DNA of 64,000 nucleotides from Eutreptiella sp. 'Long Island Sound 2002' (taxonomy: Eukaryota; Euglenozoa; Euglenophyceae; Eutreptiales; Eutreptiaceae): NCBI GenBank assembly GCA_964036045.1, contig OZ038383.1:115654431-115718430 (forward strand), written 5' to 3'. The notes under the pieces were generated by a model. That model worked only from the letters and a program-made list of their open reading frames with translations, was not told the origin of the DNA and ran no database searches. Position 1 is the stretch's first letter. Every line of letters starts with the position of its first letter. Positions 3,254-55,900 of this stretch are shown here, piece by piece. A program made the translations under genes and the position numbers.

Positions 3254-3258
3254 AGAGG

Positions 3259-23600: not shown

Positions 23601-23941
23601 GCCAATATCTAACTTCTGTACCTATGCGAATTTAAGGCAAATTCGCATAGGTATCAACAGGGCAACGAATTCCCTAATGACTGATACGAAAGCGGCGGAA
23701 AAACACGCCGAGTTCCATGATATCCCTCCTGCAGGCTCAAGTCAAAAGTACAATGAAAGGAAAGGTTAAGGGGGGATGAAGGCTAATGATATCCCCTATC
23801 AAATCTCATAGTGTGGGCCTATAATAGCCTACACAAGGGGATGACGGGGGTCAGCACAAAGAGGAGTATGTGTCCCCATAACCGGGGATCAGGCCCCACA
23901 GGGGGGGGCCGGGGGGTGCAGGGCATGACGGAAACCAAACA
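20568..23941 (-). repeat. 5' LTR of the LARD-like element (3,374 bp)
   Basis: Partner of 9563-12936. The first codons of the gag-like ORF lie within its last 86 bp. No tRNA-type primer site follows on the minus strand. Instead the leader (20567 to 20555) is nearly complementary to 20701-20714 within this LTR. Confidence 0.85.
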
Positions 23942-23945
23942 AAAC

Positions 23946-25458
23946 CCTCAGCACTGGTCTCGAACCCCGTGTCATTGACGGGCACCAGTGGTATTAAAAC
24001 AATCAGTACCTCTTCTACGAGGACCGAATTGTTGTGCCTGAGGCACGACTGGATGGGTGCCTACAGTGGTCCCATCTCAGTTCTGGTCACACTGGCGCTA
24101 ATCGCTCAGTGGACTTCTTCCGTGAGTGTTTCTACTCTAGTCTAACCCTGACTGAACTGAGGTCGCGTATGCAGACCATTGTGGATGCTTGTGGCTGTCA
24201 TGCCAGCAAGCAGAGCGACAGTAGGGATAGGGGCCTGATCTCCAGCTTACCCATACCCTATTGTGCTAACTCTCTTCTCTACGTGGATTTCATCCACGGC
24301 CTACCACGCTTCGGCGGCTATGATAGTTGCCTCGCGGTCACCTGTGGTCCCTCTCGCTTCACCCGTTTGTTCCCATGCAATAAGAAAATCACAGGTGAGC
24401 AGACTGTGAAAATGTTGGTCCAACAATGGTTCGAACCCTATGGTGCACCTAAACAGGTGCACTCTGATGAGGATGTACGCATCCGCAGTGACACTGGGTG
24501 GTACAAACGAGTGCCAAATGCCCTCAACGTGGAGGTAACCACAGGTGTGCCCTATACCCACACGTCTAACCCTCTCTGTGAGAGACAGAATCGTGTGGTG
24601 GAGCAAAACTTAAGAATCCTGATGAAACAGGAGCGCACCAAGGACTGGGTACGCCTAGTGCCCTGGGCAGTGCTGTCCATGAACTCACAGCGGAGCTCTT
24701 CTACGGGTTTCACTCCCCACGAACTGTTCCATGGAGGACGACCTGCTTGGTTCTTCAAAACCCCCTTTCCTGAGGACTTCAAGAGCCCTGTGGGAGATTG
24801 GCTGGAACACAAGCAGTCTCTGGCTAACCAGGCTGGTACTAACCTGAGGCACATACGTGACCGTGAACAGAGCCGACGGAACCGCCTACGGCGACCTGCC
24901 AGCTTCAAGGTTGGTGACCTTGTTTTGGTACACCATTCACGCCTACCCTCCTGGCCACGTAACTGCCTACAGGACCCTTACTTTGGACCCTATCGTATCA
25001 TCAGGATAGATGGATCCAGGATCCATGTCAGGTGCAGTCCACGTCTAGGTGGTGAACTGCTGTGTGCACCTAAGCAGTTGAGGCACTATCACTCCCTTGA
25101 CGACTTGTCTTGGGATGAGTGGCGCCTCAGCGACAGTGAGATTGAATGTATAGACCTAGAGAACGCTGCCAGTCCAGAGGAGGCAGACAAACTCGAAGAG
25201 ATGACTGCCGATGAGATGGCAGTCGATGGTTACTACGTGGTTGCAGGTATTGCTCGCCACGAGTATAAACAGGGCTGGAAATTCCTTACCCTGTGGGATG
25301 GCTATGGGTTGTCTGACGCGACCTGGGAACCTATGTCAGCCTTCATACAACCAGATGGGAGTATCAACCCCATCTTCCGCACTTACCTCGTTGAGAACAA
25401 CGAGGGGCAGCTCCTGACCCGTGCTGAGACTATGTCCCAGCGTAAGAAGAGAAACTAA
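23946..25458 (+). pseudogene. pol: Ty3 pol, part 2: integrase and chromodomain
   Basis: Resumes the RNase H frame after the insertion. A TAA occurs at 23994-23996 just before the integrase N-terminus, and from 24034 the frame is open to the TAA at 25456-25458. A zinc-binding H-H-C-C-like region lies at about 24085-24205 (the Cys pair is C-x-C rather than C-x2-C). The catalytic triad is D (24286-24288), D (24466-24468) and E (24580-24582), spaced 60 and 38 codons. A G-P-Y motif lies near 24985. A C-terminal chromodomain (about 25228-25395) has the Trp-Asp-Gly-Tyr and Thr-Trp-Glu-Pro signatures and would target insertion to modified histones in related elements. A basic Lys/Arg tail ends the protein. 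Confidence 0.92.
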
Positions 25459-26754
25459 TCTCCCTGTGTCAGTCTGTGCCCTGCAGACCCATGCCTATGG
25501 TTTCCAGCGTGAGCCAGGTGGCCGCTTATCATGATTGCAACCACCCAGCGAGTGTGTGCCTTGTTGACCATGTGTTGCATGGGTACTGCCCTAATGTAAT
25601 GACCTTGGAGAGCCAACGAAGAACGGTGGCTTACTACACCAGGGGGGAATGACAAGCAAGGTGTTATGAGGCAAGGAGTGTCTTCCCTCCTTGGGGACAA
25701 GCGAGCCCACAGTTAGGACCCCTGAATGGTCCAGACCCATGGGGTTCTACCCTTCCTTACAGGGTTTACCATACCCCTAAGTGTGCTACGTATGTCTGTA
25801 TGTGTCTCACTTCTCTCCCCAGCGTGGCTCCCGGAGACCGGGCTTCGCTGACGTCGGACCGAAGGTCCTAATCAGGTACTATTACCACTCCTATGGCGCC
25901 CAATTTCTGTGCTGGCGCCTATCCTTGGGGTAGGACGGCAAAAGCCCTACCTACTAGAGGGGAGGGGTGGCCAAGTGTGCTAAGGGCATACAAAACGCCC
26001 ATTTTTGCTACAGGCCAAAAGCTAACGCACTCCCCTGCCCACGAGGAAAAGCACGCTGGACAGGAGACACCACTACACTACACTCACTAACGCCAGCACC
26101 GGCCTTCGAAGGCAGGGTGAGCACTCATCACTTGCACTCAACACCTGCGAGGCCTGCTGACCCTAACCCCTACACACGCTACTGGGTGCTGCTGTCGAAG
26201 AACACTCAGGCCCTAGTGGCCCTCCTGTGAAGAGGACAAGAGAACACAGCGCTCCTAAGCAGCTGTGGCCTAACAGGGGACGCCACAACGCGTTTTCCCT
26301 GCTAGGGCTTGGAGGGAAGGGGTGCTCTCGTTGCGTGCACAGCGCAGATGTCGTTGAAGTCGAACTGCCCTCGCCAGTCCTGGCTGAGGTACAGTCATTT
26401 GATTTGTGATCAGCGCCCCTGTTTTGCTGGGGCAGAAAAATGGATAGCCGCCGAAGGCAGCTGCTGCGTGCACCAATCACCCTTAACCTCTCCCACCTGT
26501 ACAACAGAGGCAAATGAAGGGGTGTTTGCGACGGAGGAACCAAGCCACACACCAGGTATTATACCCTTCTCAGTGTGACCTATAATACGCTGTTCGCAAA
26601 CACGCTGACGGATCAGCTCCCCTGTCAAGCAAGCAAGCTTACAATATATTTTCAGGAAAAACCGTCGCCCGTTCCGAGAAATTTAAAGACATAAAAGAGA
26701 AAACTTTCACCAGAAACGACTAACGGTAACAGGAAATCAGATTTCCCTGTTCAA
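25459..26754 (+). other. Ty3 3' region downstream of integrase, non-coding
   Basis: Homologous, with divergence, to 55126-55900, which confirms that it belongs to the Ty3 family. Holds a purine run at 25956-25967 followed by TGGCC, which mimics a PPT/LTR junction and is also present at 55705-55715. It may be a central or internal PPT. No ORF with protein features. Confidence 0.5.
25956..25967 (+). other. Internal polypurine tract (possible second PPT)
   Basis: AGAGGGGAGGGG followed by TGGCC. The same arrangement occurs in the Ty3 fragment at 55705-55715. The true 3' LTR starts 5.2 kb further on, so this is not the LTR boundary. Confidence 0.45.
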
Positions 26755-31181: not shown

Positions 31182-31188
31182 AGGGGGG
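31182..31188 (+). other. Polypurine tract before the Ty3 3' LTR
   Basis: AGGGGGG directly abuts the 3' LTR, which itself begins AG. It is absent before the 5' LTR. Confidence 0.6.
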
Positions 31189-31900
31189 AGTAAGAAAAAG
31201 TCACTGCCATGTCTTTCTTGGAGGGCTTGATCCAGGCCAAGCCCCCCTTAAAACCCTTTTGTTGATGCTAAGACGGACTTAAGTGTTTTTATCTCTCTTT
31301 TGTTGCCTAAAGTACACTTTCTCAAAGTAACTAGGGTTGTGACCCTAGCCCCCCCCATGAAGTTCACCCCTACCACTCAACTGAGCGGAGGTACCCTCCT
31401 TCATGGAGGACATACCAAAATGAAACAGGCATTTCATGCTTGTTGGCCTTGGAGGTTAAGCCTAGTGGTCTCCCACCCCAAGCCCCCTATACTCAATTGT
31501 TTCTACCACTTATTGTGGTCCTAGTTTGTAACTGTTTCTGAATTCAGTTGCTTGGCCAAGTCATTTTCAGTGTGGTCCTGACATCTATGCCCCACATTCC
31601 TAACCAGCACCATTTCACCCAAAAGAGTGCACATGAAGTGCCTAATGCAATCTCTGAGGCAAGAGTCAGACCAATTTTCATATAAAACCTTTTGTATTAT
31701 CCATTTGTGATTGAAACTTTGTGTATAAACCTGCTTTGTCTATCTGCAGCCCTTCTGTGTTACACTGGATTCCAAAACCAATCATTGATTCGATCCACAT
31801 CCTGTCCTTGCTCTACTTGCTGCTTTGGTTTGGGTTTTCAACTACAAAACCTGCAGGAATACATCAAAATATCTAGGGCATAATTCAAGGACATCTTTCT
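31189..31900 (+). repeat. 3' LTR of Ty3 copy 1 (712 bp)
   Basis: Partner of 3259-3970, followed by the TSD AGAGG at 31901-31905. TATA box at 31681. Confidence 0.88.
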
Positions 31901-38814: not shown

Positions 38815-39180
38815 CCCACGTGCCCGCACAGCCGAGACAACGCCACCACACGGCCACATACACCTACACCGGCACCAGCACGCACATGTCAACAGGGAAA
38901 GCGCCCACACACGCCCGGTGCCCGAACCCGCACCCTCGTTCTCGCTACTCGCATGACCCAGCATGCTACGCCCGCCCCCGCAGCCCAGGACCCTCCGCCG
39001 TCCCCCAGGGCCCTCTCCTCCGCCTCCGGCTCCACAACCTCCACCACCGCAACCACCTCATCCACCACCACCAACAGGTTCATCCGGGAGCCGGTACAGC
39101 TCGCCATGCGGTGACAAATCGAGCAGGACCCCACCGTGTGGCCAGGGGGGGGGGTCGAGGATATACTCTTGGGGGTGGAG
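38815..39180. other. Junction region with G/C homopolymers
   Basis: His/Pro-codon-rich remnants continue to about 39110, followed by G-runs at 39147-39155 and 39184-39191. The boundary with minus-strand LINE A lies here, but I could not define a target duplication. Confidence 0.35.
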
Positions 39181-39199
39181 AAGGGGGGGGGTAAGCAGT

Positions 39200-40300
39200 T
39201 CGTGGTGCCCCGCTAGTTGGGGGCGAACAGAAATGGCTGGGTTTTGAAAGGTGTACTCTTTTTTCGTTGCGGCGGAGACCGGGGTCTTTGATGGTGTGCG
39301 TCGTGCAGTCCGAAAACTGGAGTGTGGCCGATTCTGTGTGCACCTCCGTGACTGTTCCTAGGTGGAACCCTAGGTCTTGGGGTGTTCGCTTCAACCTGTT
39401 GCCGAACTTGCTGTATTGTGGTGCTGGTTTGGTGGCTAGGAACCGGACTTGGACTTTCTCTTTTGGGAGGAAGAGGGAGGGGGAGCAGGAGCCCCAGAGG
39501 CCGGTGCTGTGGTATCAGAGGCCTATGGTGTGGCACGCGTCCATGACGGTGTCTTGGATTGGATTGCGTGTGGTGGAGACCATCGCTTTGGAATAGGATT
39601 CGTTTGTGGAGGCTGGGCCGTCTCCGTTGAGGTATCTGATTGCGGTGTTCACCAGGGCCATGCAAATGGAAAAAGTGAAGTGGCGGAGTCCTAAGCCTCC
39701 CTGGTGGCGGGGGGTATAGCGGGCTTTAGTAGAGACGAGGCGGGAAATCCTGTTGGCCTTGTCCGGGGAGGGGTCATGTGCAATATTTTGCCAGATCATG
39801 GCCTGGAGGGCGCCCAACTCGTTCAGGGCTAGGGGGTGTGCCATGAGGCGGTAGGAATGAATAGGGATGAGTTGGACGTTTACTAAGAGAATGTATTCCA
39901 AAAGGGTGAGCCGGAGGGGTTGGAGGGTTGTGAAAAAGGAGCGTATTTCCGACTTGGCCAATGCCAGCGTTTGTGCCTCGTGGTTGGGGGTGAAGATGTA
40001 CACCCCTAGGTATTTGTAGCAGTTGTGCGGTTGCCCCGTCTTCTGGTTGGTCGTTGACAGGGGGGTGCCCGTGGGGGAGGTGAAAGTTCTGGGTGGGCTG
40101 TTCCCATAGCATGGATCTCGGTTTTGCTGAGGTTTAAGTCTAGACCCCACTCCCTGGCGACCGTGTCGAAGAAATTCAAAATTTGTTGTAGCGGTCCCCA
40201 TCCTCTGATCGATAGAGGAGGTCGTCAACGAAGGCGTGCCCCGACTCGTGTGGGGAGGGGGGTGCCGTGATGTGAGACGGTAGGGCGAAGAGGAGAACAT
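39200..40300 (-). pseudogene. LINE A post-RT C-terminal region
   Basis: ORF 39515-40300 overlaps the RT ORF by 125 bp in another frame and carries the thumb-type continuation (a Tyr-Lys-Tyr-Leu-Gly-Val motif near 40000, typical after LINE RT domains). A second frame at 39213-39514 carries what looks like the true C-terminus. At least two frameshifts. No RNase H visible. Confidence 0.6.
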
Positions 40301-41279
40301 TCAGGTAAAGGCAAAAAAGGATGGCTGACATGGGGCATCCCTGCCGAACACCTCTGGTTTGCAGGTGGGAGGATTGGGTGTGCCCTGACACCACCGGGAA
40401 GTCACGGGGGGCACGGTACAAGGATTGAGTGAGGTTTACTAGGGGCGTGGGAAAGTTCAGGCGGGACAGCACCGTGAAGAGGGTGGTGTGGGGGACGGAG
40501 TTGAAAGCCTTATTGAAATCAATGTAGAGGCTGTAGCTACCGACTGATTCCCGAAACGTGTATAAAGGGTTGAAAATGTGGTCTTGGCACCTGCGGTTGG
40601 GAAGCCCGCCGACCTGGGTGGGGTGTATGATGAAGTGCTCGATGGCCGCTGTCAGTAGCTCACGGTTGGCGTGCGTTGCAATTATTTTGTAAACGCTGTT
40701 CAGCAAGGCTATAGGCCTGTAATTTACAGGGTTCGTCACGTCACCCTTCTTAAAAAGCAAGATAATGTTGGCTTCGAGCCATTTCTCGGGCAACGGCTGG
40801 TGGAGGTAGTGGTTACATACCCTCCAAATGAATTGTTGGATAGGGGGAGGGGAGATGTGCAAGCTGTAGTTGTTTGTGAAGTCCCGCCCACCTGCCTTGT
40901 TGGGCGTTGACCTCTTGAGCGTGTTGCGGAATGATTCCCAGGTAATGTCAGGGAGAGGGCTGTGTTTTGTGGGTTCAGGGCAGGTGGGGGAGTGTCTGAG
41001 CAGGCGATCAGCGAGTGTGCTCGGCGGTGCGTACTCAAGGCTGCCCCCCAGGGTGAGGAGTGTGGAAGCAAAAATGGAGCTCACTTCTTTAGGGGTGGAG
41101 ACGAGCTGTGTGGCGCCCGGGCGCTTCAGCGTTATTTCACCGCGTTCCACAGGGTTGAGCGCCTCGTTGATGGTGCGCTTGATCCTAGTTTTCCTCACAA
41201 GGCACCGATGGATTTCGGTGGTTGCGGCCTTGTTCACTTTGGTTTCCCACTCCTTGACGAGTTTGTTTAGCGTGTCCAT
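40176..41279 (-). pseudogene. LINE A reverse transcriptase domain
   Basis: RNA-dependent DNA polymerase for target-primed reverse transcription. In order from the N-terminus: a Lys/Arg-rich leader, the L-F-K-K-G-D and N-Y-R-P-I-A-L-L-N motif (about 40700-40770), L-Y-I-D-F-N-K-A-F (about 40510-40540), R-Q-G-C-P-M-S (about 40335-40355), and catalytic F-V-D-D (about 40216-40230). This order is that of non-LTR RTs (RVT_1). The upstream part of ORF2 lies in other frames at 41280-41534. Confidence 0.88.
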
Positions 41280-41534: not shown

Positions 41535-42467
41535 TCAGTTTGCGGGTGTTTCGGAGAAGGGGTGGGGGGGGACTTGAGAGGTGTATGTGACTGGGTGGTG
41601 GTCTGACGTTTTGTCATCGGTTTGGATGGTGGCAGAGGTTGGGGCAAAAAACTCCGAGGCCGCTGGGGAGAGCAAAATATGGTCGAGTCGGCTGCTGCTT
41701 GCCCTGTACGGGGTGTTGTATCGGGAGAAAGACCGCTCGGTCGGGTGAAAGTGCCGGAAGGTATCGATGAGGCGTGGCTGGTCGCTTGTGACCTGCCTGC
41801 GGAGCCATGGCCACTCGTTGTCCGTTTGGAGGTTCGCTCCGTCCAGTTCAGGGCACATTATGTAGTTGGTGTCGCCGCCGAGGACGTGGTTGGGATATTG
41901 ATACATGAGTGGCCGCAGGATGTTTTCAATTTTTGAGCGGTGGACGTCCGCGCTCGGGGCGTATACCGAGACCAACAAGGTGAGCGGGGCCCCCGGGAGG
42001 GTGAGAACGGCTGCCGCCAGCAGCCCTTCCGTATCGAGTCGGGGGAGGCGGGTAACGAGCCGGGCGAGCCGGGGGGAGCAAACCAAAACGGACCCGTGCT
42101 CGCCTCTGGAGTGTTTGTCCTGGCTGATGTTCGAAACAATGCCGGCTTTAGTGCCCGAACCGTAGGCGTATTCGTGGGGGAGGATGGGGGCGTGATTGAT
42201 TTCTTGGAGAAAGAGGATGTTGAAGTCCTTATTGAGGTGTCGGAGGATTGGGCTGCTCACTATAGGTTTCTTCTGCAAGTTGTGGGACAGAAAATGCAGT
42301 TCTGAAGGGAGGGGTAGGGGGGGTTGGCGAGGCCGTTGGTATCCCTTCCGTAGGCGCGTACCGGATTTTGGGGGGGGCGGGATAGGGGGGGGCTGGGGGG
42401 GTGCTGAGGGGTCGGGCTGGCTGGGCTGGCTAAGGCAACGGAAGTGCTGAATTTGGTCGGCCGGCAC
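41535..42467 (-). pseudogene. LINE A apurinic-like endonuclease domain (ORF2 start)
   Basis: A likely ORF2 start at 42467, with a Pro-rich N-terminus of about 45 residues. An exonuclease-endonuclease-phosphatase fold follows: an F-L-Q-E motif early, a G-G-D-T-N motif at mid-length (usually G-D-F-N), S-S-R-L-D-H-I-L toward the end, and the catalytic D-H-H-P-V. This nicks target DNA in APE-type LINEs. The frame is lost at 41535, and the linker to the RT continues in a different frame, a probable one-base indel. Confidence 0.85.
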
Positions 42468-42621: not shown

Positions 42622-43160
42622 TTAGCTTGCCTGTGGGATGTGGCGGAGGATTAGAGCGAGCCGAGGGATGGTACGCGGGACAGTGAGCCCAAACACTTTG
42701 TCTTCCCTGCGTTGGGGTATCCCGTGGTGCCACTCATGGCGTGCTGCCTCTGTGAGGACCAGGAGAGAGTGGGCAAAGAGGCGGATGCGGAAACAGTCCC
42801 CGTTGGAGGGGTTTTCAAAGAACATTGTGGTGTCCCACTGGGAACCAAAAATGGACACCGGGTCGCCTAGCAAGGGGTCGTCCCTGTGGTAGCCGATGCC
42901 CTCTCCCGGGAGATACATTGTGCCTGTGATTTGGTTTGGGGGGGGGTGCGAGAGGCCTAGTCGCTCGAGCGCGGCCTTGTAGGGTTGGATGATAGAGGAA
43001 AACTCTTCCGGGATGTGGGACGTGGCGGTGACTTTGCTCCGGCTGAGGTATGCGTGGCCGAAGTGTTGGACTGAGCGCCCGTGGTATTTCTCCCACTTGT
43101 TGTCGTGGAGAACCTTTTTTACCGTTTCCTCTTGGCTCTCGGAAAATACGTCGCGGACGT
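42622..43160 (-). CDS. AlkB-like 2-oxoglutarate/Fe(II) dioxygenase domain, C-terminus of LINE A ORF1
   Basis: AlkB enzymes oxidatively remove methyl groups from nucleic acids. This segment has a Tyr-Leu-Pro-Gly-Glu-Gly-Ile-Gly-Tyr motif running into H-R-D (Fe ligands His and Asp, about 42880-42895), a Gly-Asp-Pro-Val-Ser-Ile-Phe strand, and then R-H-E-W-H-H-G-I followed by P-Q-R-R (the distal Fe-ligand His and 2OG-binding Arg, about 42700-42740). The order and spacing fit ALKBH-type domains. The first codons after the LINE B break (43160) continue ORF1 from 52611 in the same frame, so the domain belongs to the LINE and is not an independent gene. All key residues look intact. Residues predicted upstream of 43160 are antisense LINE B sequence. 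Confidence 0.8.
43128..43160. repeat. Left copy of 33-bp target duplication of LINE B
   Basis: Matches 52611-52643 with one mismatch (T at 43151, C at 52634). Both copies encode the same LINE A codons around Phe-Ser-Glu-Ser-Gln-Glu. Confidence 0.88.
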
Positions 43161-46100
43161 CCCGAGGTGCACTACCCCGTCCCGGAGTTCGCAACTCTAG
43201 CGGGGGGCGACTGGGTCCACCGCATACCCCGGGCCCTGGCCGCCCTGGGAGTGGGGCTGTACAACCCCATCGCGTGCCCCAGTGCAACCCATGTCCAACT
43301 ACAGTCCCCGGCGGGCAACATCGTCACGCTGCGCACCGCCAAGCTGCAACACCGCGACACGTGCCGCCTGACGGTGCCACACACAACGCCGTGGCATGGG
43401 CACCACCGGCCACGCCACCCCTTCCCCGACAACGACGATCCGTGGCCGACGGCGGTGCGGGAGTGCCTCAACCAATGCGCCGATGAACACCTCCACTATT
43501 GCCGCCGTGAGCAGGAGCCCACCAACAACCCCGGGTGGCGCGACACCTTGGTCCACCTCTTCCACACCACCGGCACGCGGCACCCCCGCCTGAGACTCGT
43601 CCACCCCACGAGGGCTAAGCAGGACGCCCACACCGGCCCACGGGTGACCCTGGATGGCCTGCACCTCCACGTCGGGGGCTACCGCCGCCGGGACTGCCTG
43701 TCCCCCCCCACGCGGGGGGCGGCGTACCACCCGCCGGCAGCCCTCATGTACATCCTCCACGACGTGCTCGCAGAAAGCGAGCACCAAGAGCCTAACGCGG
43801 ACGTGGCATGGCCCGAGCCCCTGCGCCCCCGGCCCCACGCGCGGACGCCGTTGTGGTTGGTGACCACGGACGACCAATGCACCCAAGCGACGGGGCAAGC
43901 GCAGCTCCGGCCGAGTGGGTAATAGTGCAGGTTGGGGCGGGCCAGCCCGAACCCCGTGGGCTCCCCCGTGGCACCGCCCTGCTGGTAGCCACGGGCATGC
44001 CGCACGACCCACACATGGCGGTGCACGCGTTGGAGGACCAGCCGGAGGACACGGGACACCTGGTGGTGCACCAGCGCGGGGGCCCGGCGTGGCTCAAGGA
44101 ACATGTGACGGCACTTCGGTCCTGGGCAAGCACGATCACCGGAGCGGAGATCCGGCTGCACGACCACCCGGCGATCAGCCCAGGCGACACCAGAGCGCTG
44201 AGCCTGGACCAACTGACCCCCAGCCACCCCGACGTCCGATGGCACTCCGCCGACCTCAACGCGGGGTGGCTCAGCCCCACCGGATACTACTGGATCCCGG
44301 AGGCCTGGGGCCACACCTCTTCCGACGCGTCCGGGGGCGGACCCTGCAAGCACGCCACCAGCGTCGCTCTCGCCGCCGACCTCACCCGCACGTGGGCGGT
44401 GGCCATCTCGGGCACGGTGCCCGACGGGGAGGGGGTGGCCGCCTCCCTCCCCCTACAATACGGTGCCCACCGACCATTGGTCCACACGGCGGACGCCGAA
44501 GTCATCCTCCACCTCCTGCGGCACGCAGATCGCGAGCGGACCACGGTGGTCCGCGCAGGCGCAGCGAAAGTGGTCAACCAGATGCCCCTGAGGTGGCTCC
44601 GGGACAGCCTGTGCGCGCGAGGGCAACACGCCGGGCACCCGTTCTGGTACGTCCGAGCCACCTCGCACCACAGTGACGCCCTACTGCACAAGGCGGACTG
44701 GGCGGCGTCCCAGGACACCGTCCTGCAGAACACGCCCCCGGACCCTGGCCACGCCCAGCTCATTGTCGCCGGCCGTGACGGCCATCTTGATCTACGGCCC
44801 CCCACGATGCGGGTGCTCGGCGAGGTCGCGCAGCGGGCGCAGACGGACCATGCGCTGACGCAGCGGGGACACATACCTTTTGGCGCGGCCCACGCCACGG
44901 CCTATGTCCACGCCCGGGACCTCACCGCGACGGCCACCAACCGCCGGGCGCTGCGGGCCCGAGACGGCCACACGCCGGTGCAGCGCAGGCTCCGCGTTCG
45001 TAAGGAGCGGCTCTCCGGCGTCGCCATCGTCCCACAACCGTGCCTTTTATGCGGCGGCCCGGAGGAGACCCCGGTGCACATGCACGTGGGATGCGCCCAC
45101 TCACAGCTCCTCTGGCCCCACTACCGCCAGGCGGTACACGAGGCGGCCCGCCAGCTCCCACCCGGGGACAAAGCCCTGTGAGTGGCCTCCTGGCGCTCTG
45201 CAGGCGCCACATGGACGGAGGTATTCTGCTCCGGACTGGTGCCCGAGGACGCGGAGGCGCAGCTCCGCGCCATAGCCCGAAACGACCCGCCGGGAGGGAC
45301 CTGTGTGGACGATTTCCTCCACCACATGCTCCGGCTGGGGGACTTCGCATGGGAGCTTCGCCACCACCGGGTGGAGCAACTCCTCCGCGAGCCCCAGAGC
45401 GCGGCGGCCCGGGCACACCGGTGGCTCACTGCGGCGGAGGGCGAACACCCTCCCCCTCCCCCGCGCCCTGACAAGGACTTCGTAGCCTCCCTCCGTGTCG
45501 TGAATGGCACTCTGGAGTGCCCGCCCCAAGAGGGCCCCCACCCGTACCAGGACCTGCCGGGGGGGTTCTCGAGGCACCTACAAGACGCCCTCTTCCCACC
45601 GTGGATCATCGGGCGCGGTTCCATGACCGCGTGGGAGGCGCGCATCGTGGGTGAGGAATGGGCGCGCGAGTGAAGCTGGTGGTGTGCCGCCACGCGCGCC
45701 CCGGAGACCCCTGCGCAGCGATACGCCGCCGTCCCCCTCAAGGGATGGGGGCCGGACACCCGGCCGAGACTCACCGCGATCCGCGGGGCGGGACCTGACC
45801 ACCCGTGGGACGCGGCGACGGGGGAATGGCTGCAGGCGGCCCTGGGGCCGCAAACGGGATGGACTGGGGACGTGTCCTCACTCGTCAGGACACCAGTCCC
45901 GCCCTGCATCGTCCTTCACGCCGCCAACGTACTCCGGGCTACGGAGATAAGCACGTGGGGACACGCCGCGGCCATTGTCCGGTGGCACCCCCCAGAGGAC
46001 GGGGCCGCCCAGCTCGCCGTGGCGCACTTCAAAGCTGGGGGGCCGGTATACGACGACGCCCTGTCCCGGCTGGGCGACACCCAGGAGCCCTTGCTCCTCA

Positions 46101-46801
46101 TGCTCCCCACCGGCATTGCAGCCGCGCTGCGCCAGGAGCTAGACGGCTGCGAAGGGCTGCGAGTGGGATGGGAGGCAGTCGCGGACGGCACCCTGCTGGC
46201 CCTCCTCCACCGAGACACCGCGAACGGGTGCCGATGGGATGCGCTGACGCCCCACCTCACCGGGCGCCACGTGTACATGGCAAGCCCCCCCCAGGGGCAC
46301 CCCCGCCCGGCGTGGGACGACCTCATCGCCGCCTTCCACGACCACGGGATCCTCCCCAACGACACGTGGCAGGAGGTCCAGCGGAAGACGCTCGGCAAGG
46401 ACTACCGGCGCCGCGTCCGCGCCCGCCTGCTGGAGATCTGGGACCCCCTCCGACAGAGGTGGGACGACCTCTGGCTCCGCCATCTCGACCCTTGGTCGCC
46501 GCCCTCCCACCTCCCACACACCTGCCGACTCTGCGGGGAATGTGACACGGTGTCCTCCGCAGCGTCGACAGGCGCCAACAGGTGCGCGCGGTGCGCCCGG
46601 GTGGCCGCGTGCCCCTGGCCTGAAGCTCCCGCAGGCCCGCGGAGGCGCACAGAGGAGGAGGCCCTGCACCGGCGCATCGAGGGGGCACACACCCCCTCAC
46701 ACGAACGAGCGGGCCCCGCGGGCGCTGCCCTTCTGTGGATCCACGTGCACCTGCCGGACCCCACATCCGTTGCGCACGTGTCGCACGTGTTCGCGCCCTA
46801 A
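43161..46801 (+). pseudogene. LINE B pol C-terminal region: RNase H and zf-RVT zinc finger
   Basis: The frame starting at 43161 runs to about 43920, then a one-base shift leads into a frame open to TAA 46799-46801 except for TGA at 45179-45181 and 45671-45673. RNase H (about 44310-44720): Asp in S-D-A-S-G-G (44324-44326), Glu in G-E-G-V-A-A, Asp in H-T-A-D-A-E, and a terminal H-S-D...K-A-D-W-A-A. This region degrades RNA in RNA:DNA hybrids. At about 45040-45120 C-L-L-C-G-G...E-T-P-V-H-M-H...C...W is the zf-RVT signature found after LINE RTs. About 540 further codons follow, with a second Cys cluster (C-x2-C...C-x2-C, about 46527-46605). No RT remains, which is consistent with 5' truncation. 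Confidence 0.75.
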
Positions 46802-46840
46802 CCCCCACCCGCCGCCGCCCTTTGCAGAGCCCGCAGCACC

Positions 46841-48074
46841 ATGCCGGGCCTACGGGGGGATGGGCCGGGACTCACCAAGGCCCGCCGCAAAGCGCAGGAG
46901 GCGGCCGTCCGTGGCCTGGTGGCGGACGCGGTGGCGGAGGCACACGAAGCGCACGCTGCCGCACGGTGTGACCTGACGGGCAGTGCGAGGGCTTTCCTCA
47001 ACGAGACCGCCCTCCCGGCCGTCCGCGCCCTGAACGGAGCGGGGGACCCTACGCTGCTCCCAGCAATGCACCGGATCGTGAACGCCGTCCAGCCGGGGCT
47101 CATCAGCCCGGAGGCGGCCCTCTACGGGCACTGGATGGAGTGGCGCGAGTCCAATCGGTCGGGCCGGCCCCTGTCCGTGGGGGACACCCTGCGGCTGACG
47201 GGAGCAGGGTCTGCCATGTCCCTCCGCAGCAGCGCCCCAGCCCTGCTGCACGCCCTGAGGACGCGCTACCCCGGGGACGCGGCCCCGTACCTGAACCAGG
47301 CGCGGGCCACGTACCCGGGGGGAGTGTCCGAGCTGGATGCAGCGCTCCACCTTCTACACCCACCGGAAGAGGACCTGGAGGTGGGCGAGATCACGGTGTT
47401 CGTGGAAGGCGCGGACAAGGCGTCCGCCCGCCCCCGGCCGACAAACCCGGTGTACGACGGCGCCAGGCCTACCCCCCCGTACGCCATCGTACGCGAGGCG
47501 TTCTTCAGGGAGCCCACTTGGTGCCCCGCCCTCCCGCCGGCGACGCACGCGCCCCGCGGCTGGGCTAACCCAGACCTGTCCCCCCCCCCTCTCCAGAACC
47601 AGGGGTGCCCACCACAGGGGGCAGGTCCTCTGGCAAGAGTGCCCTGGCACCCCCCTGCTCCTCCTTGTCGTCGCGACCCGCGGGGACCCGGGGCGGATCC
47701 TGGGGATCACCCCCACCCACCTGTATGGGGCAACACCCGTACCCCGCCCCCCCCTCCCGGCGCCCGCGGCGCGCCACGGAGTACACACCTTCCTGCGAAC
47801 ACAGGAGGTCACCGCCGTTACGGGGGTCCACCTGCTGCGGCTCCCCCCGACACCACTCGACGACCCCCGGGGACCCAGGGCCCTGGGCCCCGCCCCAGAC
47901 TGGGAGCTATGGCGCGACGCGTGGGCCGCGCGGCTCCCCCGCCCCCCCTCCCAATGCCGGTGGATGGCCGCCGGCCCCCGGCCGTGCGGGGCTGACGCCA
48001 CAGCCGGCCCCCCACCCCCTCCCCCCCTCCCCCCCGCAGAGCACCACACGGCACTGCCCACGGCACGGCACTGA
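46841..48074 (+). pseudogene. LINE B downstream ORF, unidentified
   Basis: Starts at ATG 46841, 40 bp after the pol stop. The coherent frame runs to about 47590 and then shifts within a C-run (47580-47589) to the frame ending at TGA 48072-48074, about 410 codons in all. The first part is Ala/Arg/Leu-rich and helical. Around 47370-47420 it is acidic. After the shift a Leu/Val-rich segment with a Trp-Glu-Leu-Trp motif looks globular, ending in poly-Pro. No recognised domain. The minus-strand ORFs of about 600 codons opposite are antisense products of GC richness. Confidence 0.4.
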
Positions 48075-48136
48075 TGCACCAGGAGGTAGTGGGAAGGACG
48101 CGCCTGCCACCACGCATGCCTACCAGGAGAACAGTG

Positions 48137-50244
48137 ATGGCAGACTCCGATGGCTCCCCCCAGCGGGACGACCGCCACCACCGCCGGTCCCGCTCCCGCT
48201 CCCCCGCCTCCCCGGAGTGGACGGGGGAGACCCTCGCGGAGCGCGAGGAGCGGAGGCTGGCGGAGGCGGCGGTGCTGGTCGGGCCGCCGCCGCCGACCCG
48301 GGAGCCTGAGCCAGCCGAGATGACCGCCCCCGCCGCCCAAGCAGCAAGCCCCGCCGCCCCGCCCCGGGAGGGGGCCCCAGACGCGCATGAAGCGGAGACC
48401 GCAGCCCCAGCGAGCCACGCGGCGGCCCCGACCGCGGCCCCCGGCACGCCACCAACACGGGGGGTAGCCCCGGCGCAGGAACCGGGCGCATCGCCGAGGG
48501 CTGCCGCAGCCGCAGAGGAGAGCGGGAAGGGCGCGCGAGGGGTTGCGACCGCGGCCCCGGCGGGCCGCGCCACCGCCTCGGCCGACCACGCCGCGACCCC
48601 CAGCACGCCGCGAAAGCGGGGGGCGGACTCCGCACGGGCCACGGGCGCCTCGCCGGCGGCCGCCACAGCAGCGAAGGAGAGCGAGGAGGGCGCGCGAGGG
48701 GCTGCGGCCGCGACCCCGGCGGGCCGCGCCAGCGCCTCGGCCGGCCCCGCCGCGACCCCCAGCACGCCGCGAACGCGAGGGGCGGACCCCGCACGGGCCA
48801 CGGGCGCCTCGCCGGCGGCCGCCACAGCAGTAGAGGAGAGCGAGGAGGGCGCGTGAGGAGTTGCGGCCGCGACCCCGGCGGGCCGCGCCACCGCCTCGGC
48901 CGGCCACGCCGCGACCCCCAGCACTCCGGGCAAGCGAGGGAAGAACCCCGCACGGGCCACGGGCGCCTCGCCGGCGGCCGCCGCAGCAGCGGCAGTGGGC
49001 AGGGAGAGCGCAAAGTACTGCGCCCACGCCAGCCCCACCCACACCCACACCAGCCCCCCCAAGCAGTTCCCCCCCAAGCCCTTCCCCCCGGGGCGGGAGC
49101 GGCACGTCCGCCCCCCGGCGCCCGAGCGCTCGCCGCCGGGCGTCACGCTGCCGCAGCTGCAAAGACAGCGGGACGCCCGGCGCGTTGTCCAGGAAGGGCG
49201 CAGCAGCGGGGGGGAGCAGAGTGCAGGCAGCGGACGGCGCGACTCAGGGCAGGGGGCCGGGAAGGGGCCAGGGCACGGGAAGGGCGCGCAGGGGCACGGG
49301 CAAGGAGACCAGATGCAGGGGGCAGGGCGAGAGGAGGTGGGTGAGCGGGCGGGCCAGGGCGTGGGGGACGGGAGGCGGGAGCCGCGACACGGGCGGGGGG
49401 CTGCAAAGGGGCCCAAGGGCAAGGGCAAGGGCGCCGCGGGCCCCAAGGGACAGGCAGGACGGGGCATGGGAGCCCAGGGGGGAGGGCGGGACGAAGGGAG
49501 GGGGGCGGAGGGCGGGGTGCCCCCGCAGCCGGACGTGCAGCCGGTGAGGGGCATCCCCCCCGGCATCCAACAGATGCCGGCGCACCACACCCACCACGAC
49601 CACCACCACCACCACAACCACCTCTACAACATCGATCCTGATGCCGGCGAGCTCGTCCCCCCCCAACCCCCACGACCCCGGCACCAGCCAGCCCCCCCCT
49701 CGCCGAGGGCGGAGCCGGCGCGGATGGCCTCGGCTGAGGGGGGGCGGGGCGCGGCATCGGAGCCGCAGGCACAGGGGCAGCGAGGGGGGCCGGCGCGGGG
49801 GGCAGAGGGGGGCGGGCCATGGGACCGGGACTGGGGCGCGGTCCCAGACCCTCTGGGGGAGGAGATCCTCCCCCTGGTGGGGGAGGTGTACGGATGGTTG
49901 TGCTGGGCCAACCAGGAGACCTCCAGGGGGTCGAGGAACCGGCCCTTCGATGCCGTGCTCCTCCGGAGAGACGGAGGAAACTGAGAGGTACCCCCGAGGG
50001 GGGGGGGGCAGCCCCAAAGGACCATGAGAGGGTCCTCAGGTCAGTGATCTGGGCGGCGTGGCCCGACAGGCAGCCGACGTGGCTGGCCTTCCTGGAAGGG
50101 GGAGCGGTGCTCCGCATCACGGATGCGGACGCCAACAACTGGCTCCCCCGGGCTTTGGGCAGCGCCCTCGCCCACTGGCGCTACCGCCGGCACAACCCGC
50201 CGCCGCCACAGCCCCAGCCCCCACACAAGCGGCGGCGCAGGTGA
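48137..50244 (+). pseudogene. LINE B Arg/Ser-, Ala- and His-rich ORF (about 700 codons)
   Basis: Starts at ATG 48137 with a good purine/G context. Order: an Arg/Ser/His-rich segment (S-R-S-R-S-type, about residues 10-30), an acidic helix, Ala/Pro-rich low complexity with three 53-residue repeats (48536-49012), a Gly/Lys/Gln-rich stretch, an almost pure His/Asp stretch (about 49580-49625), and a Trp-containing globular C-terminus ending in Lys-Arg-Arg-Arg-Arg (50244). TGA at 48854-48856 replaces the CGA seen at the same place in the sister repeats. TGA at 49982-49984 and a G-run indel near 50000 interrupt the end. An RNA-binding or chaperone-like ORF1 role is possible but unproven. Confidence 0.45.
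48536..49012 (+). repeat. Three tandem 159-bp coding repeats
   Basis: Units 48536-48694, 48695-48853 and 48854-49012 encode related 53-residue Ala/Pro/Thr/Glu-rich segments. A looser fourth unit precedes them. Confidence 0.78.
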
Positions 50245-52610
50245 TGGCCCAGACGGCGGATGCGAGAGAGTGGGGGGGGGAGCTGGGCCCCCGGACCCAC
50301 GCCCCCCCCAAGGTATGGCACGACGCATGAGAGCGTGCCACCTCCCGCGGGAGGGAGGGCGGAGACAACGAGCGCGGGGGGGAACCTGCTGCCCCGCAGC
50401 CCGCTCACCACTGACCGCTAACCCTCACGGCCGCCCCCGACCGGCCAGCACCGCGCGACAGCGGCCGGGGGGATGAGGGGCCCCAGCGAGGGCCTGCACA
50501 AGGGTCCGGCTCTAGGTAGAGGGGGGCGGGGGAAGGGCGCGACCCCCCAGCAGATGGCTGGCCCCCGGGGCCGGGACTGCCATGCCGCCCCCCCCCCCCC
50601 CGGCCGTCAGGAGGCGTCGCCAGGGGCCCAGAGGGCCCCCCCCACTCCCCCCCCCCTCCCACTCAGGCTGGAGAGCGGGCGGGGGGGCGGCCCCCCCACC
50701 CCCCCCCCCCCGCAGCCCCCCCAGCTGGGGAGCCACAGGCGCGGCCCTCCGCCCCCCCGGAGCCGGGGGGGCGACGCGGTGGGGGGAGCGGCGGCTGGAC
50801 CTGCTCCCGCGAGCCCACACTGGTGTGCCGGAGCAACGCGCACAACGGAACAGTATGGAGGCCGCGCCCCACATGACCCTCCCGTGACCACAGCCCACTC
50901 AGGAAGGGCAGAGGGGGGGTTCAGGTCTGCAAGGGCCCCCGGGGGAGCGGTCCACGGGCCGCCCCTCACCCCCCCCCAACCCGGGGCGGCACTTCGGCCC
51001 CGACCGCACGCGCACGCCGGAAGGGAGCGCGCCGGCGACACGAAGGGGGCCAGGATTGAGTACCGCAGGCCGCCGCCCAGAAGGGGAGCAGGGAGGCCGC
51101 GGCGCGACACCCCCCCCCCCCGCCCCCCCACCAGCCCGCAGGCCGCGGGGGCCCCGGCCCTCACCCCCCGAGGCAGGGGGGATGGCCCCCCCCCCGCCCG
51201 AGAGAGGAGCCGGAGCGCGACCCGCTTCCGCGCCCCAGCCGCCGGCTCCCATGGGGGCCGCGAAGAACAAGCGAGCCCGCGCCTACGCGCCAGGACGCCG
51301 CACAGATCGTACCCAGAGAAGCCTGGTGAGCACGAACCGGAGTGGTATGGGGTGCCACGCCCCCCATGGACAGCACAACGCCAGTGGCACCCGCTTTGCT
51401 GCCTGCCCAGGGAAGGCCCAGGGACGGAATGAGGCAGAGCGACCCCCCGCCCTACAGGCCCCCCCCCGGCCGCACAACCGGGGGGTACGGCGCACGCCCC
51501 CCCCCCCCCAGCCCGCCCCCCAGCACATGAACGCCACGGACCCGCCCCGCAGCGCGCAGCCCCCACAGGGCGTGCCGGCCAAGGGGACAGAGCAGGGCCC
51601 CCACACCCGCATGCCCGCGCCCACAACACGTGGATCGCGGACCCCGACAGCCCGCCCAGTGGGCGGGCAGTCGGGGGAGGGGGAGCGCATGACCCCAGAC
51701 GCCCCTCGCAACGGTAGAAGGCACCCCCCCCGGGGACGCCCTGCCGCCACCCCCACAACCTCAAGCCAAGTAGGGGGGAACCGGGACCGGACGGCCCCCC
51801 CCAAAGCACGCCAGACGGAGCAAGGGACCGGGGCAGGACACGCGGAGGGGCACGGACCACGTGCAACGGCCCTACCAGCGCCCAGTGCCGGGCCCACGCG
51901 AGGTGCGCACGCCACACCACCCAGGGGAGGGGGGAGCGGACACCGCGAGAGCGCCAGCGCACACACACGAAAGGGACACGGGGGGACTACCAGAAGGGGA
52001 ACCGGACCGAGCGCGCGGAACGCACAGACCGCGTGGAATGGCGTACCAGCGAGCGAGGGTAAGGGACGACCGGAAAGGACGGCCCGCCACACGCAGCGCG
52101 GAACACGCGGGGCGGGGAGGGGGAAACGAGAGGGACACAACACCAGGTACCGGCACGAACCCCCCGAACCAGCCGCGAGCGCCGCGCACACACGGACGGG
52201 GCACTGCACCCGCCAAGCCAGTAGTGGCGCACAGCGCCACGCCCCAACCCCTAGGCTAGGCAGCCTCCGCGCCAGCCCAAGGGGGTCCCACTGGCGACAA
52301 GCCAGTAGCACGGGCCCGGCGGCTCGGGCGCCCCGGGCGACCACGCATTAGGGGGGCGACGCAGTGGGTAAGCGCCCGCAGCCACGGCTGCGAATTGATG
52401 CACTGACCGGGGAGTGGCGAAACGGGGAAGCCGGGGAAGGACGGGGCTCCGAGCTCTGTGAACCCGGGGGACTCCGCCACCAGGCAGGAGGTGCGTCTTG
52501 GAGGGCCCCCCACTAGGACCCGGTGGGGAGGATATCACCTGGCCCGACCTGGTGGCCCCCCGGGGCCAAAAGGCGTCTAGTACCCGCAAAATCAAACCTC
52601 CAACCTCAAA
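50245..52610 (+). other. LINE B 3' region, non-coding, GC-rich
   Basis: About 2.4 kb with many G and C homopolymers. Long ORFs occur in nearly every frame on both strands (for example 51056-52351 plus and 50607-51968 minus), which is a composition effect. A hairpin-bearing stretch with an A-box-like sequence (52352-52400) near the 3' end may be a structured tail. It ends with CAAACCTC-type repeats next to the target duplication. Confidence 0.4.
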
Positions 52611-52643
52611 CCTCTTGGCTCTCGGAAAATACGCCGCGGACGT
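52611..52643. repeat. Right copy of 33-bp target duplication of LINE B
   Basis: See 43128-43160. Confidence 0.88.
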
Positions 52644-55014
52644 AATAAAAATCAGTAGGGAGGCGGGGGTCGATTTGTATCTCCGAGGCGGGCGTGGGGG
52701 CATCGTGGTAGGGGGGTAGGAGGGTGGTCGCCTCGCCTCCCAGCGGAGCAAGCAGCGGGACGCTGGTTTCGGACATCTCTTCGATGTGGTTTGGTCCCGG
52801 CGATGGCGTGGCGGCGTCGGCGTCGTCCGGTGACGCGTTCCACTCGCTGATGCGCTTAGTCAGCCCCGTCGCGGGCTTATCACGAAGGGCGGAGACACGT
52901 TGGGACACGAAGGCCGTGGACCCCAAGGCGGCGCCCGCTTGGAGGCGTTGCACGATGGGTTGCCCGTGCTCGGCCACATCCGGGTCTTGAGCAGGGAGTA
53001 TCTTCTCGAGGGCGAGGAGGTTGCGGTGTAGTGGGGCAAAGGCAGCGTCTCCATATTTGAAATCGTGCGCTAGCAGCGCGGATTCCTCCTTTTCGTAGAC
53101 CACGAGGTGGGCTTGTTGGTGCTCGTAGGGAGGTCGCGTGGGTTCGAACAACACATATGGGCCAAGGAACCCCGCTTGGACGCGCAAGTCGAGAGCATGC
53201 GCCGACCTTGGGGCCACTAGGAGCACGGCGGTCCTCGGGGCCTTAGACGAGTCGTATGAGGGCGGGGCCGGCGTTGCGTGGGCTCGCTCGGGGGCGCCCG
53301 AAGGCGCGGACCTCGTATTGCCGTCGGATCTTGACGAAAACCGCACCAATTGCCCATCTATGCCATGAAAGAGAACAATACCGCATGAGTGGAAGAAGCG
53401 GATAGCTAGCGTTGGGACCCCAGTTTTCATGACGTCGCACGGCGCGTGTGTGGTGTCAATCGCCACGACCAAGGAGTCTTTCGACCGGAACATTGCTCCT
53501 AAGGGCGGTGAGGCGCCCCGTCCTCCGGGCAGGTTGGCGATCATCATGGTGAGTATTTCTGGGGCTTGTAGGTCTTTATTTCTTTCCTTCCGGTCCCTAG
53601 CGATAACGGCTAGATACACTTCGGTAGTCGGCAAAGCGTGCATGTCCATTGCAGAGAGTTCTCCGGTGAGGAATTGGGCGCACTTGCGGACTTTAAACAT
53701 GAGCTCGTCGGCAAAGCGGGATGGGAGTTCCCAATCAAACCGGTAGTAGGCCCAATGCGGGCTCTCGGAAGGAACTATGTGGCCAAACGGGTAGTAAGCA
53801 TTCTTGGTGTTCACCGATACGTTTGCTAGCGCGGGGACAAACATTTCGTTCATTAACTTCATGAATGCACGGGCGTCTCCAATTTTGCGTTGTTTTGGTT
53901 GAGACTTGTCTCTCTCCTCCGGCGGCGAAGGCTCAATGTGATCAAGGAACTCTATGCTCACCTCAAAACGTAGTGTTTTGTGCAACCGGAGGTCACGCAC
54001 CGCTGGATGGGCGTGCTTGGCGGCGAAGCGGAAAGATTCAAACTTAAAATTGATGTCTTCATATCGGCAGGCGTCAAAGGAAGAGGTGTTTAGGAGTAAG
54101 GCAACATACGGCATCGTTTGATGGCCGCTTGTGCGGAACTCGTAGGACTCTTTGCCGTCCTTTTTGACCTTGTAGGCGTCCCGAAGTTGTGCTCCATGCA
54201 TACATATCACGCTAGAAATGTAAGGAAGGAGAGGAAAAAGGGCGGAAGTTGAGCCTAGCATGCGAAAGGTGGCGGGAACCACTTGAGCGTCCCACGCCGG
54301 AATAACGAACCATCCTTTGAGGTCTTTGTTCTCCTCTTTGGCTTTATCTAGCACGGTTCGTAATTGTTTAGCCCACGGGGTGGCGGTAGGCGGAGACTTC
54401 TTGGCTTCGGTTTGAGAATAGTCCAACTCATACGGCTTTAGATAGAAACGCTTGTGCTTGAACAAAAGCTTTTCAAGCTCGTTGTAGTTATTGTGCGCAA
54501 CGGAAGAGACCCTGCCTCGGTCTAGAATTTCCGTGGAGTTGCTCCCAACAAAGGCGGATTGAATATCGGTGCCTTCCACATCCGGGTAGAACTCGGAGTA
54601 GTCTTGTAGACGGTGGTAAACTTCGGGAACGAAGATGCGTTGGCGTGTGTCAAATATTTTGCCTTCAACGGCTTCAAATTGGCGTGACGGAAAGCGTGTT
54701 TGTAGCGGCGAACTTGAGGCTTGGTGTTTTTGAAAGAGGTGTGACGGGGAATAGTTAAATAGCATTGAAAGGCCATCATCGGCGGCTTTGGAGCTTCCAA
54801 ATAGAGTGAAATTCATGGTGTTCTCGGGATGAACGAAAAGGCGACTTGGCGTCAAATGAAAGGTTGCGAGCGTGGATTTGGACTCGGGAATGGAGGTGAT
54901 GATTTGAAAACTGCGGGAAAGGCTCCAGAACTTGAACTGCCCAGGATTTTCACCAATCACCGAATAGCCTGGACTACTGGTGCATCCATCAACAAAATGC
55001 TGAGGGTCAATCAA
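52611..55014 (-). CDS. LINE A ORF1, N-terminal part (about 800 aa, open)
   Basis: An uninterrupted minus-strand frame entering from the junction near 55014 (no credible ATG at the edge, so the 5' end is probably truncated) and running to the LINE B insertion at 52611. Only the last two codons are LINE B sequence. The composition is mixed and globular, much less GC-biased than LINE B: aromatic-rich N-terminal 350 residues, a Lys/Glu/Gln-rich linker (about residues 365-385), a further globular segment, and an acidic/Pro-rich end leading into the AlkB domain at 43160. No CCHC knuckle, RRM or coiled coil recognised. Its intactness over 800 codons contrasts with the broken ORF2. Confidence 0.72.
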
Positions 55015-55900
55015 AAAAAAATAGACACTCAGAAAGTGATCTTTCGTTCCTACCTCGTTGAGAACAACGAGGGGCAGTTGCTAACCCGTGCTGAGACCCT
55101 GTCCCAGCGTAAGAAGAGGAACTAACCTCCCAGGGTCGGTGAGCACTCTGAGCACTGCACCAACCGTGGCTGTGCCCTGCAGTCCCATGCCTATGGTTAC
55201 CAGCGTGAGCCAGATGGCCGCTTATCAGGTTTGCAGCCAACCAGCGAGTGTTTGCCTTGTTGACCATGTGTGCCATGGGACCTGCCCTGATGTTATGACC
55301 TTGGGGAGCCAACGATGAACGGTGGCTAGCTATTCTAATGACCAGGGGCGAATGACAAGCAAGGTGTGTTCACCCTCCTTGGGGACAAGCGTGCCCACAG
55401 TTAGGACCCCTAACTGGTCCAGACCCATGGGGTTCTACCCTTCCTAACCTGGTCGCTATACATGTCTGCCTAGGTATGTGTGAGTGTGCTATGCCTGAGG
55501 TCCTAAGAGCGAGTTGCAGAAGTGGTGTCCTAATTATACCAAGGTCTGCACGCTTGCTAAACCTGGAGGGTTGTCTTATTGATGCCACGGGGTACGCCCC
55601 GGGTCTCCCCTCCCTATGCGCCCAATTTCTGTGCTTGCGCAAAACCTTTGGGGCATACCCAGCGTACTATTCCAGGTATTGTTTTTCCTACCTACCGGAC
55701 TACTAAAGGGAGGGGTGGCCAAAAGCTATGAAGGCATGAAAATGCCATTTTGCTAAGTGGCCAAAACGCTGACCTAACCACTGCCACAGCCCACTGAAGC
55801 CGGTTAGGACCCCAGTGGCCATCTTTGGGTCACTTGGGGTGTGTATCTATTTGCCGGCAAGCCGCCATTGGCTGATATCATACTCTCCCATCCACCTGAC
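55015..55900 (+). mobile_element. Ty3 3' fragment (end of chromodomain plus 3' region)
   Basis: From about 55021 to TAA 55123-55125 the sequence encodes the last 30 or so codons of the Ty3 integrase/chromodomain protein, closely matching 25380-25458. The following 3' region aligns with 25459-26200 to about 55900, including the internal polypurine tract (55705-55715). No LTR follows. An A-run (55012-55020) marks the border with LINE A. Confidence 0.75.

Follow-up and report, generated by a model that had tools for sequence, protein, structure and literature searches.

Why should a retrotransposon carry an AlkB-like dioxygenase? The question is raised by a 64,000-nucleotide stretch of the genome of Eutreptiella sp. 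'Long Island Sound 2002' (contig OZ038383.1, positions 115,654,431 to 115,718,430; hereafter the window), in which a reading of the sequence alone had proposed an AlkB domain fused in frame to a first open reading frame (ORF1) of some 800 residues and followed by the apurinic/apyrimidinic endonuclease (APE) and reverse transcriptase (RT) of a long interspersed nuclear element (LINE). Based on the profile, copy and substitution evidence presented here, the answer would be that a clade of LINEs has evidently long kept an active-looking AlkB domain, which probably serves the element's own RNA. The window itself holds what is evidently an old, damaged and interrupted copy of this euglenid APE-type LINE (the AlkB-LINE), all coding pieces of which lie on the minus strand; its parts, in positions of the whole stretch, are as follows.

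55012 to 55038, minus strand: 5' end, with an extra C (55038) and the spliced leader (SL; 55037-55012), one base off the Euglena gracilis SL
54817 to 55011, minus strand: 5' untranslated region (UTR), the first ~100 nt after the SL being 80-85% identical in the P0050 family, another LINE family discussed below
52611 to 54816, minus strand: N-terminal part of ORF1, no known domain, likely ATG at 54816
43161 to 52610, no strand assigned: nested GC-rich insertion of 9,450 bp, foreign to the AlkB-LINE, splitting ORF1
52611 to 52643, no strand assigned: target-site duplication of the insertion, copy 1, 32/33 identical to copy 2
43128 to 43160, no strand assigned: target-site duplication of the insertion, copy 2, 32/33 identical to copy 1
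42622 to 43160, minus strand: AlkB (2OG-FeII_Oxy_2), C-terminus of ORF1, assigned by Pfam and ligands
42886-42888 (H), 42880-42882 (D) and 42724-42726 (H), minus strand: Fe ligands of AlkB, from the sequence
42661-42663 and 42643-42645, minus strand: Arg pair of AlkB, from the sequence
41535 to 42467, minus strand: ORF2 piece with the APE-type endonuclease, assigned by Pfam and a LINE-1 endonuclease match
40176 to 41279, minus strand: ORF2 piece with the RT, assigned by Pfam and a LINE-1 ORF2p match
39076 to 40300, minus strand: broken remainder of ORF2 past the RT, with RNase H and the 3' end missing, from alignment to a complete copy

The expected long ORF1 is indeed present as an ORF of 802 amino acids (aa; 55014-52606, minus), and AlkB lies in a separate minus-strand ORF (43287-42622), the translation of 42622-43160 on this strand giving a Pfam 2OG-FeII_Oxy_2 match; a plus-strand reading of the same interval contains stops and was rejected. 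The proposed in-frame fusion stands as far as the reading frame is concerned, but the two parts are not contiguous here, since the 9,450-bp insertion, flanked on both sides by a 33-nt direct repeat, separates them at ...VFSESQE / ETVKKVL.... When the empty site is reconstructed, a single frame is open for 991 codons and runs uninterrupted through the duplication. The APE (41538-42467, minus; Exo_endo_phos, E 1.9e-7) and the RT (40179-41279, minus; RVT_1, E 1.6e-20) of the same element follow downstream, as predicted, in an ORF2 broken into separate open pieces. The APE matches the LINE-1 endonuclease (E 2e-4) and the RT matches LINE-1 ORF2p (E 5e-13), with LINE-1 ahead of R2 in the order of sequence matches. 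Alignment to a complete copy from elsewhere in the genome (L007) gives the window copy an identity of 93.9% before the nested insertion and 90.3% beyond it, with homology ending at 39076, before the RNase H region. No target-site duplication (TSD) of the window AlkB-LINE copy itself was found in the window, and the N-terminal part of ORF1 matched no Pfam family above cut-off.

The window AlkB scores 28.7 bits (E 1.8e-6) against the Pfam family 2OG-FeII_Oxy_2 (PF13532), slightly under the gathering score of 31.2 bits. Among four relatives scanned, P0004 (38.0) and P0001 (31.8) exceed this score and P0002 (31.0) and P0024 (29.8) fall just below it; PF13532 was the only Pfam family found in these four proteins, and no DNMT domain was detected in them. 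Profile matches were thus obtained in the window copy, in its relatives and in the genome. A sequence search of the PDB with the window domain retrieved the fission yeast protein P8A3.02c (E 2e-11), ALKBH8 (3e-8) and ALKBH6 (5e-6), and a profile of six copies raised P8A3.02c to E 3e-13 and ALKBH8 to 9e-10. Weaker, non-significant matches comprised a DNA N6-methyl adenine demethylase (E 0.02-0.4), ALKBH7, ALKBH2 and ALKBH3, and three AlkB sequence searches of the PDB, taken to E 1, retrieved neither ALKBH5 nor FTO chains. By these matches the domain is nearest to the P8A3.02c/ALKBH8/ALKBH6 group. The Fe ligands and the 2-oxoglutarate (2OG) arginine that had been reported as apparently intact are present in the window copy (H92, D94, H146 and the R167/R173 pair), and the full H-x-D...H and R-x5-R set is kept in all nine complete AlkB rows of the compared subfamilies, the window included.

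The association of AlkB with ORF1 extends well beyond the window. The 802-aa ORF1 part, when compared with 5.8 billion proteins, matched 26 of them; the relatives bearing PF13532 include a 984-aa protein (163 cluster members) and an 824-aa protein (121 members). Sixteen of the 26 reach ORF1 residue 782 or beyond, and AlkB is visible in 14 of these, in several of them truncated or out of frame; the other two end at an apparent frameshift just ahead of it, and none of the 16 is an intact relative running on without AlkB. A query with AlkB only, limited to long proteins, gave nine proteins, all of them already known members of the ORF1-AlkB family, and neither P0001 nor the AlkB alignment found a relative among viral contigs. 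Copies were also sought in the 2.28-Gb host genome containing the window. With the 984-aa query, 46 copies were scored as the best among 3,668 first-look candidates; all 46 extend to the final residue of AlkB at 99-100% identity, and 43 are stop-free. With the 824-aa query all 55 scored copies (the best of 3,093) reach the end and none has a stop. The two sets overlap and, being made up of best-scoring candidates, do not give the share of intact family members. Intact LINE copies lacking the domain, which would have spoken against the sequence-only reading, were not encountered: every one of these best-scoring copies (46/46 and 55/55) carries AlkB.

The APE of ORF2 lies directly downstream in all 30 loci fetched with the 984-aa query. 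ORF2 is open for at least 1,470 codons in the eight copies extended downstream and measures 1,634 or 1,681 codons in the five extended further; in the complete copy L002/L031, Pfam finds APE and RT, with RNase H just under the cut-off (E 5e-5, 23.8 versus 25.8 bits). Four of the five fully extended copies bear the marks expected of LINE insertions, namely TSDs (16, 20, 18 and 16 nt), no long terminal repeats and a short A tail closing the 3' end that they share, ~8,456 bp from the 5' end; in L002, eight further bases stand between the TSD and the SL, and the fifth copy (L016) leaves the common sequence ~340 bp earlier. The complete element, ~8.46 kb long, is therefore ordered as SL, ORF1-AlkB and an ORF2 with APE, RT and RNase H. 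These four copies are mutually 99.6-99.8% identical and apparently represent a young, abundant and complete LINE.

The AlkB part also bears traces of selection. Between subfamilies A (P0001 type) and B (P0004 type), with synonymous divergence (dS) of 0.21-0.28 in AlkB, the ratio of nonsynonymous to synonymous substitution rates (dN/dS) is 0.076-0.152 for one A copy against five B copies, with bootstrap upper 95% limits of 0.16-0.28; these five values are not independent, as one branch is common to all of them. The ratio is similar in the N-terminal part of ORF1 (0.06-0.10, A against three B copies) and higher in the linker ahead of AlkB (0.19-0.32). Within B, dN/dS of AlkB ranges from 0.08 to 1.2, on few changes. 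Because the B copies include some post-insertion decay, the between-subfamily values are conservative. The Ka/Ks test that had been proposed for this domain thus returned purifying selection (dN/dS 0.08-0.15 between subfamilies), and selection appears to have kept AlkB in working order.

Other LINE families of this genome carry AlkB in the same place. The P0050 family has an RT ~50% identical to that of the AlkB-LINE; the best 81 of 40,040 candidates were scored and four upstream stretches fetched. AlkB stands ahead of APE in all four (28-30% identical, E 1e-11 to 1e-17; 45.1 bits against PF13532 in L059), and the remaining ORF1 (25-31% identical) and an inexact 5' SL are found in three. The Fe triad is kept in three of the four and the full set with both arginines in two. 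For PF13532 in the whole genome, the best 150 of 1,107 first-look candidates were scored. Measured against these, 15 of 95 scored RT copies of the P0074 family have a listed same-strand match at a distance of 1.2-1.8 kb upstream, and none of the 95 has one within 5 kb downstream. In the one P0074-family copy that was read, all ligands are kept (H-V-D, W-K-H, R-V-S-L-V-F-R), a 130-aa piece scoring 18.7 bits; P0070 matches many of the same places as P0074 and was not counted as an extra family. Since AlkB has the same placement in three families, the ORF1-AlkB fusion would most simply be older than the split of at least these three. As a separate observation, the 15 best PF13532 matches in the genome (60-106 bits, among the best 150 of 1,107) could be host genes and the source of the LINE domain.

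A second peculiarity concerns the 5' end. All 30 fetched loci (L001-L030) start with the exact Euglena gracilis SL as printed in PMC6242988, followed by ATTGACCC, and 29 different upstream flanks precede it; the window copy differs by one base change within the SL. This leader points to a euglenid host; the dinoflagellate SL does not occur in the window, and a dinoflagellate host, first suggested by a gypsy motif, was rejected. An extra C stands directly before the SL in all 30 loci, preceded by A in 23 and by T in seven; in L007 and L015 the duplication does not include this C, which is thus not target sequence in these two copies. It is perhaps an untemplated or cap-derived base. The SL-ATTGACCC junction is identical in subfamily A, subfamily B and the P0050 family. 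Over the following ~102 nt (element nt 27-128; window ~54911-55011, minus), A copies match P0050-type ones at 80-85% identity, compared with 42-44% in the remaining 5' UTR and the ORF1 start. The ORF1 proteins themselves are only ~27% identical; this conserved stretch is a candidate internal promoter or RNA signal. It matched no Rfam ribozyme or known RNA family, apart from one sub-threshold snoRNA match, and the 5' region folds no better than shuffled sequences (z -0.35 to -0.73). The genomic junction (CG|ATTG) lacks the AG of a splice acceptor, so the SL seems to be passed on together with the element, either as a leader by now encoded in the genome or through descent of all copies from a few master copies that are trans-spliced. 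An element RNA with the host SL could be capped and translated like a host mRNA. In P0008 (913 aa), SL-coding sequence is joined to an internal point of ORF1, within a GC-rich element that resembles the insertion in the window. Trans-splicing to an acceptor inside ORF1 would give such a joint, and P0008 may possibly reflect both such an acceptor and reciprocal nesting of the two element families.

What might the domain do? The explanation that we consider the most probable is that of a LINE clade whose ORF1-AlkB acts on its own RNA in cis and aids full-length reverse transcription. ORF1p would package the element RNA and thereby deliver AlkB to it in cis; AlkB would oxidatively strip base methyl groups, most likely RT-blocking marks or damage of the N1-methyladenosine/3-methylcytidine (m1A/m3C) type, so that Watson-Crick-face methyl groups, an obstacle to the RT, are removed before or during copying; target-primed reverse transcription would then yield a full-length copy of the ~8.5-kb RNA. 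AlkB treatment serves just this purpose ahead of tRNA sequencing by reverse transcription, and an 8.5-kb template that needs full-length copying would gain from it. Self-repair or escape from methylation-based silencing, as the sequence-only reading had suggested, is plausible; a version centred on N6-methyladenosine (m6A) is less supported, given the lack of an ALKBH5-like or FTO match. More tentatively, and with doubt outweighing confidence, ORF1 as a self-service eraser of RT-blocking methylation may be combined with a genome-encoded SL 5' end that mimics a trans-spliced host mRNA without new splicing.

Several observations weigh against an active AlkB that repairs the element's RNA. Many database copies are cut or frameshifted, and the scored genome copies, as best candidates, overstate the intactness of the family. 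Ligands or frame are lost in places: N replaces the ligand D in P0012 (a cut copy), Q replaces the first H in L057 of the P0050 family, which also has in-frame stops, Q replaces the first Arg in L056 of the same family, and the P0074-family copy has one stop codon within AlkB. Outside AlkB, ORF1 shows no recognised RNA-binding domain in Pfam scans of the window copy and its relatives. The predicted structures of ORF1 and AlkB are poor (mean predicted local distance difference test score, pLDDT, 26 and 38), so that the fold assignment rests on sequence. In the distant RT family P0130, none of 73 copies has a listed PF13532 match within 8 kb upstream (among the best 150 of 1,107 candidates, which does not prove absence), and some LINEs of this genome may hence do without AlkB. 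Moreover, the substrate is not readable from the sequence: among the nearest relatives of solved structure are ALKBH8, which acts on the wobble uridine of tRNA, and P8A3.02c, whose PDB entry calls it uncharacterised, so that RNA repair is not the sole option.

The strongest of the rival explanations, though an unlikely one, is that AlkB counters host silencing, erasing a regulatory mark that the host places on element transcripts (m6A or m1A) or on DNA near the insertion (6mA, N6-methyladenine, for instance). It draws on the m6A demethylase activity demonstrated for the AlkB of an orchid Ty3/Gypsy element, as described in PMC9289625, on the existence of another LINE ORF1 with a base-modifying enzyme, the SymbioLINE-Dnmt of PMC5890265, and on the non-significant matches to DNA N6-methyl adenine demethylase chains (E 0.02-0.4); yet the significant matches are P8A3.02c, ALKBH8 and ALKBH6, with neither ALKBH5 nor FTO even at E 1. 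Less likely still would be a domain kept for something other than demethylation, whether binding of nucleic acid or protein, or hydroxylation of a protein (histone, ORF1p) or of tRNA. That the nearest solved relative is named only as uncharacterised, that ALKBH8 hydroxylates tRNA and that some copies have lost a ligand (though these may just be decaying) would fit such a role, but a binding-only domain is expected to lose its ligands, and all Fe and 2OG ligands are kept in 9/9 complete subfamily rows and in copies of two other families, one of them ~28-30% identical. Finally, the distance of 9.45 kb between the window pieces and the broken ORF2 could suggest a chance neighbour, a host gene or pseudogene joined to ORF1 by accident, a notion of negligible probability that we reject in view of the in-frame empty site, the dozens of dispersed near-identical fusion copies, their linkage to APE, the corresponding position of AlkB in two other LINE families and the purifying selection on the domain.

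An AlkB-bearing LINE was not found in the open-access literature, as searched through titles and the beginnings of abstracts among the matches listed, a body of text outside which most subscription papers, preprints and Repbase fall. Some plant RNA viruses encode AlkB domains as part of their replicase and are likewise parasites whose RNA genome brings its own AlkB, but the AlkB-LINE is a retrotransposon. The trypanosomatid ingi/L1Tc elements, which share the 5' hallmark Pr77, are also euglenozoan APE-type LINEs with a first ~100 nt common to otherwise divergent families; unlike theirs, the shared 5' stretch of the AlkB-LINE begins with the SL and matched no ribozyme family, and to our knowledge no AlkB occurs in ingi/L1Tc. 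The Ty3/Gypsy element of the orchid Phalaenopsis likewise encodes an AlkB-family 2OG dioxygenase, with m6A demethylation in vitro; as presented in PMC9289625, it is a long terminal repeat (LTR) retrotransposon with a separate ORF for an ALKBH5-type, tested m6A eraser, whereas the AlkB of the present LINE is fused to ORF1, resembles ALKBH8/P8A3.02c and is a predicted enzyme. A close parallel in layout is offered by the dinoflagellate SymbioLINE-Dnmt elements, which, according to PMC5890265, are two-ORF LINEs with a cytosine methyltransferase in ORF1, an endonuclease and an RT, TSDs and purifying selection on the captured domain. As described there, their enzyme is a writer (cytosine methyltransferase) and their host lineage is different; the AlkB-LINE enzyme would be an eraser (dioxygenase), and the AlkB-LINE has a 5' SL. 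That retrotransposons acquire enzymes which modify nucleic acids is thus already known, and an AlkB in a LINE would, by the literature searched, be a further instance not described before.

Beyond plant viruses and the orchid LTR element, LINEs too have recruited and kept an AlkB dioxygenase, under demonstrable purifying selection in one family and in the same place in at least three. It thereby becomes testable in a culturable organism whether base methylation of retrotransposon RNA restricts its reverse transcription and whether elements fight back; the many young, near-identical copies are natural material for this question. The SL 5' end provides a second handle, on the life of retrotransposons in genomes that trans-splice their mRNAs. 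If the eraser and the SL mimicry both proved true, this would be a retrotransposon built around repairing and disguising its own RNA.

The surroundings of the window copy include further mobile elements. The insertion nested in ORF1 shows a weak zf-RVT match on its plus strand (Pfam E 0.0063, below cut-off) and includes a 159-bp tandem repeat at 48483-48990. A Gypsy-like element (3257-31900), with a gag-like ORF, RT, RNase H and an integrase with a weak chromodomain match, is bounded by ~714-bp repeats (3257-3970 and 31187-31900, 98.5%) and has apparently been interrupted by another element, whose direct repeats measure 3,375 bp (9562-12936 and 20567-23941, 98.8%). The 5' end of the AlkB-LINE adjoins, at 55039-55448, a second copy of the 3' end of a gypsy integrase ORF (25372-25760); no matching left flank was found at the other end of the window LINE, which suggests a later deletion or rearrangement. 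Interruption by nested elements is also seen in the tail of P0025: the AlkB of this ORF1 copy is cut short by another nested element, which by eye resembles the window ORF at 2249-2887.

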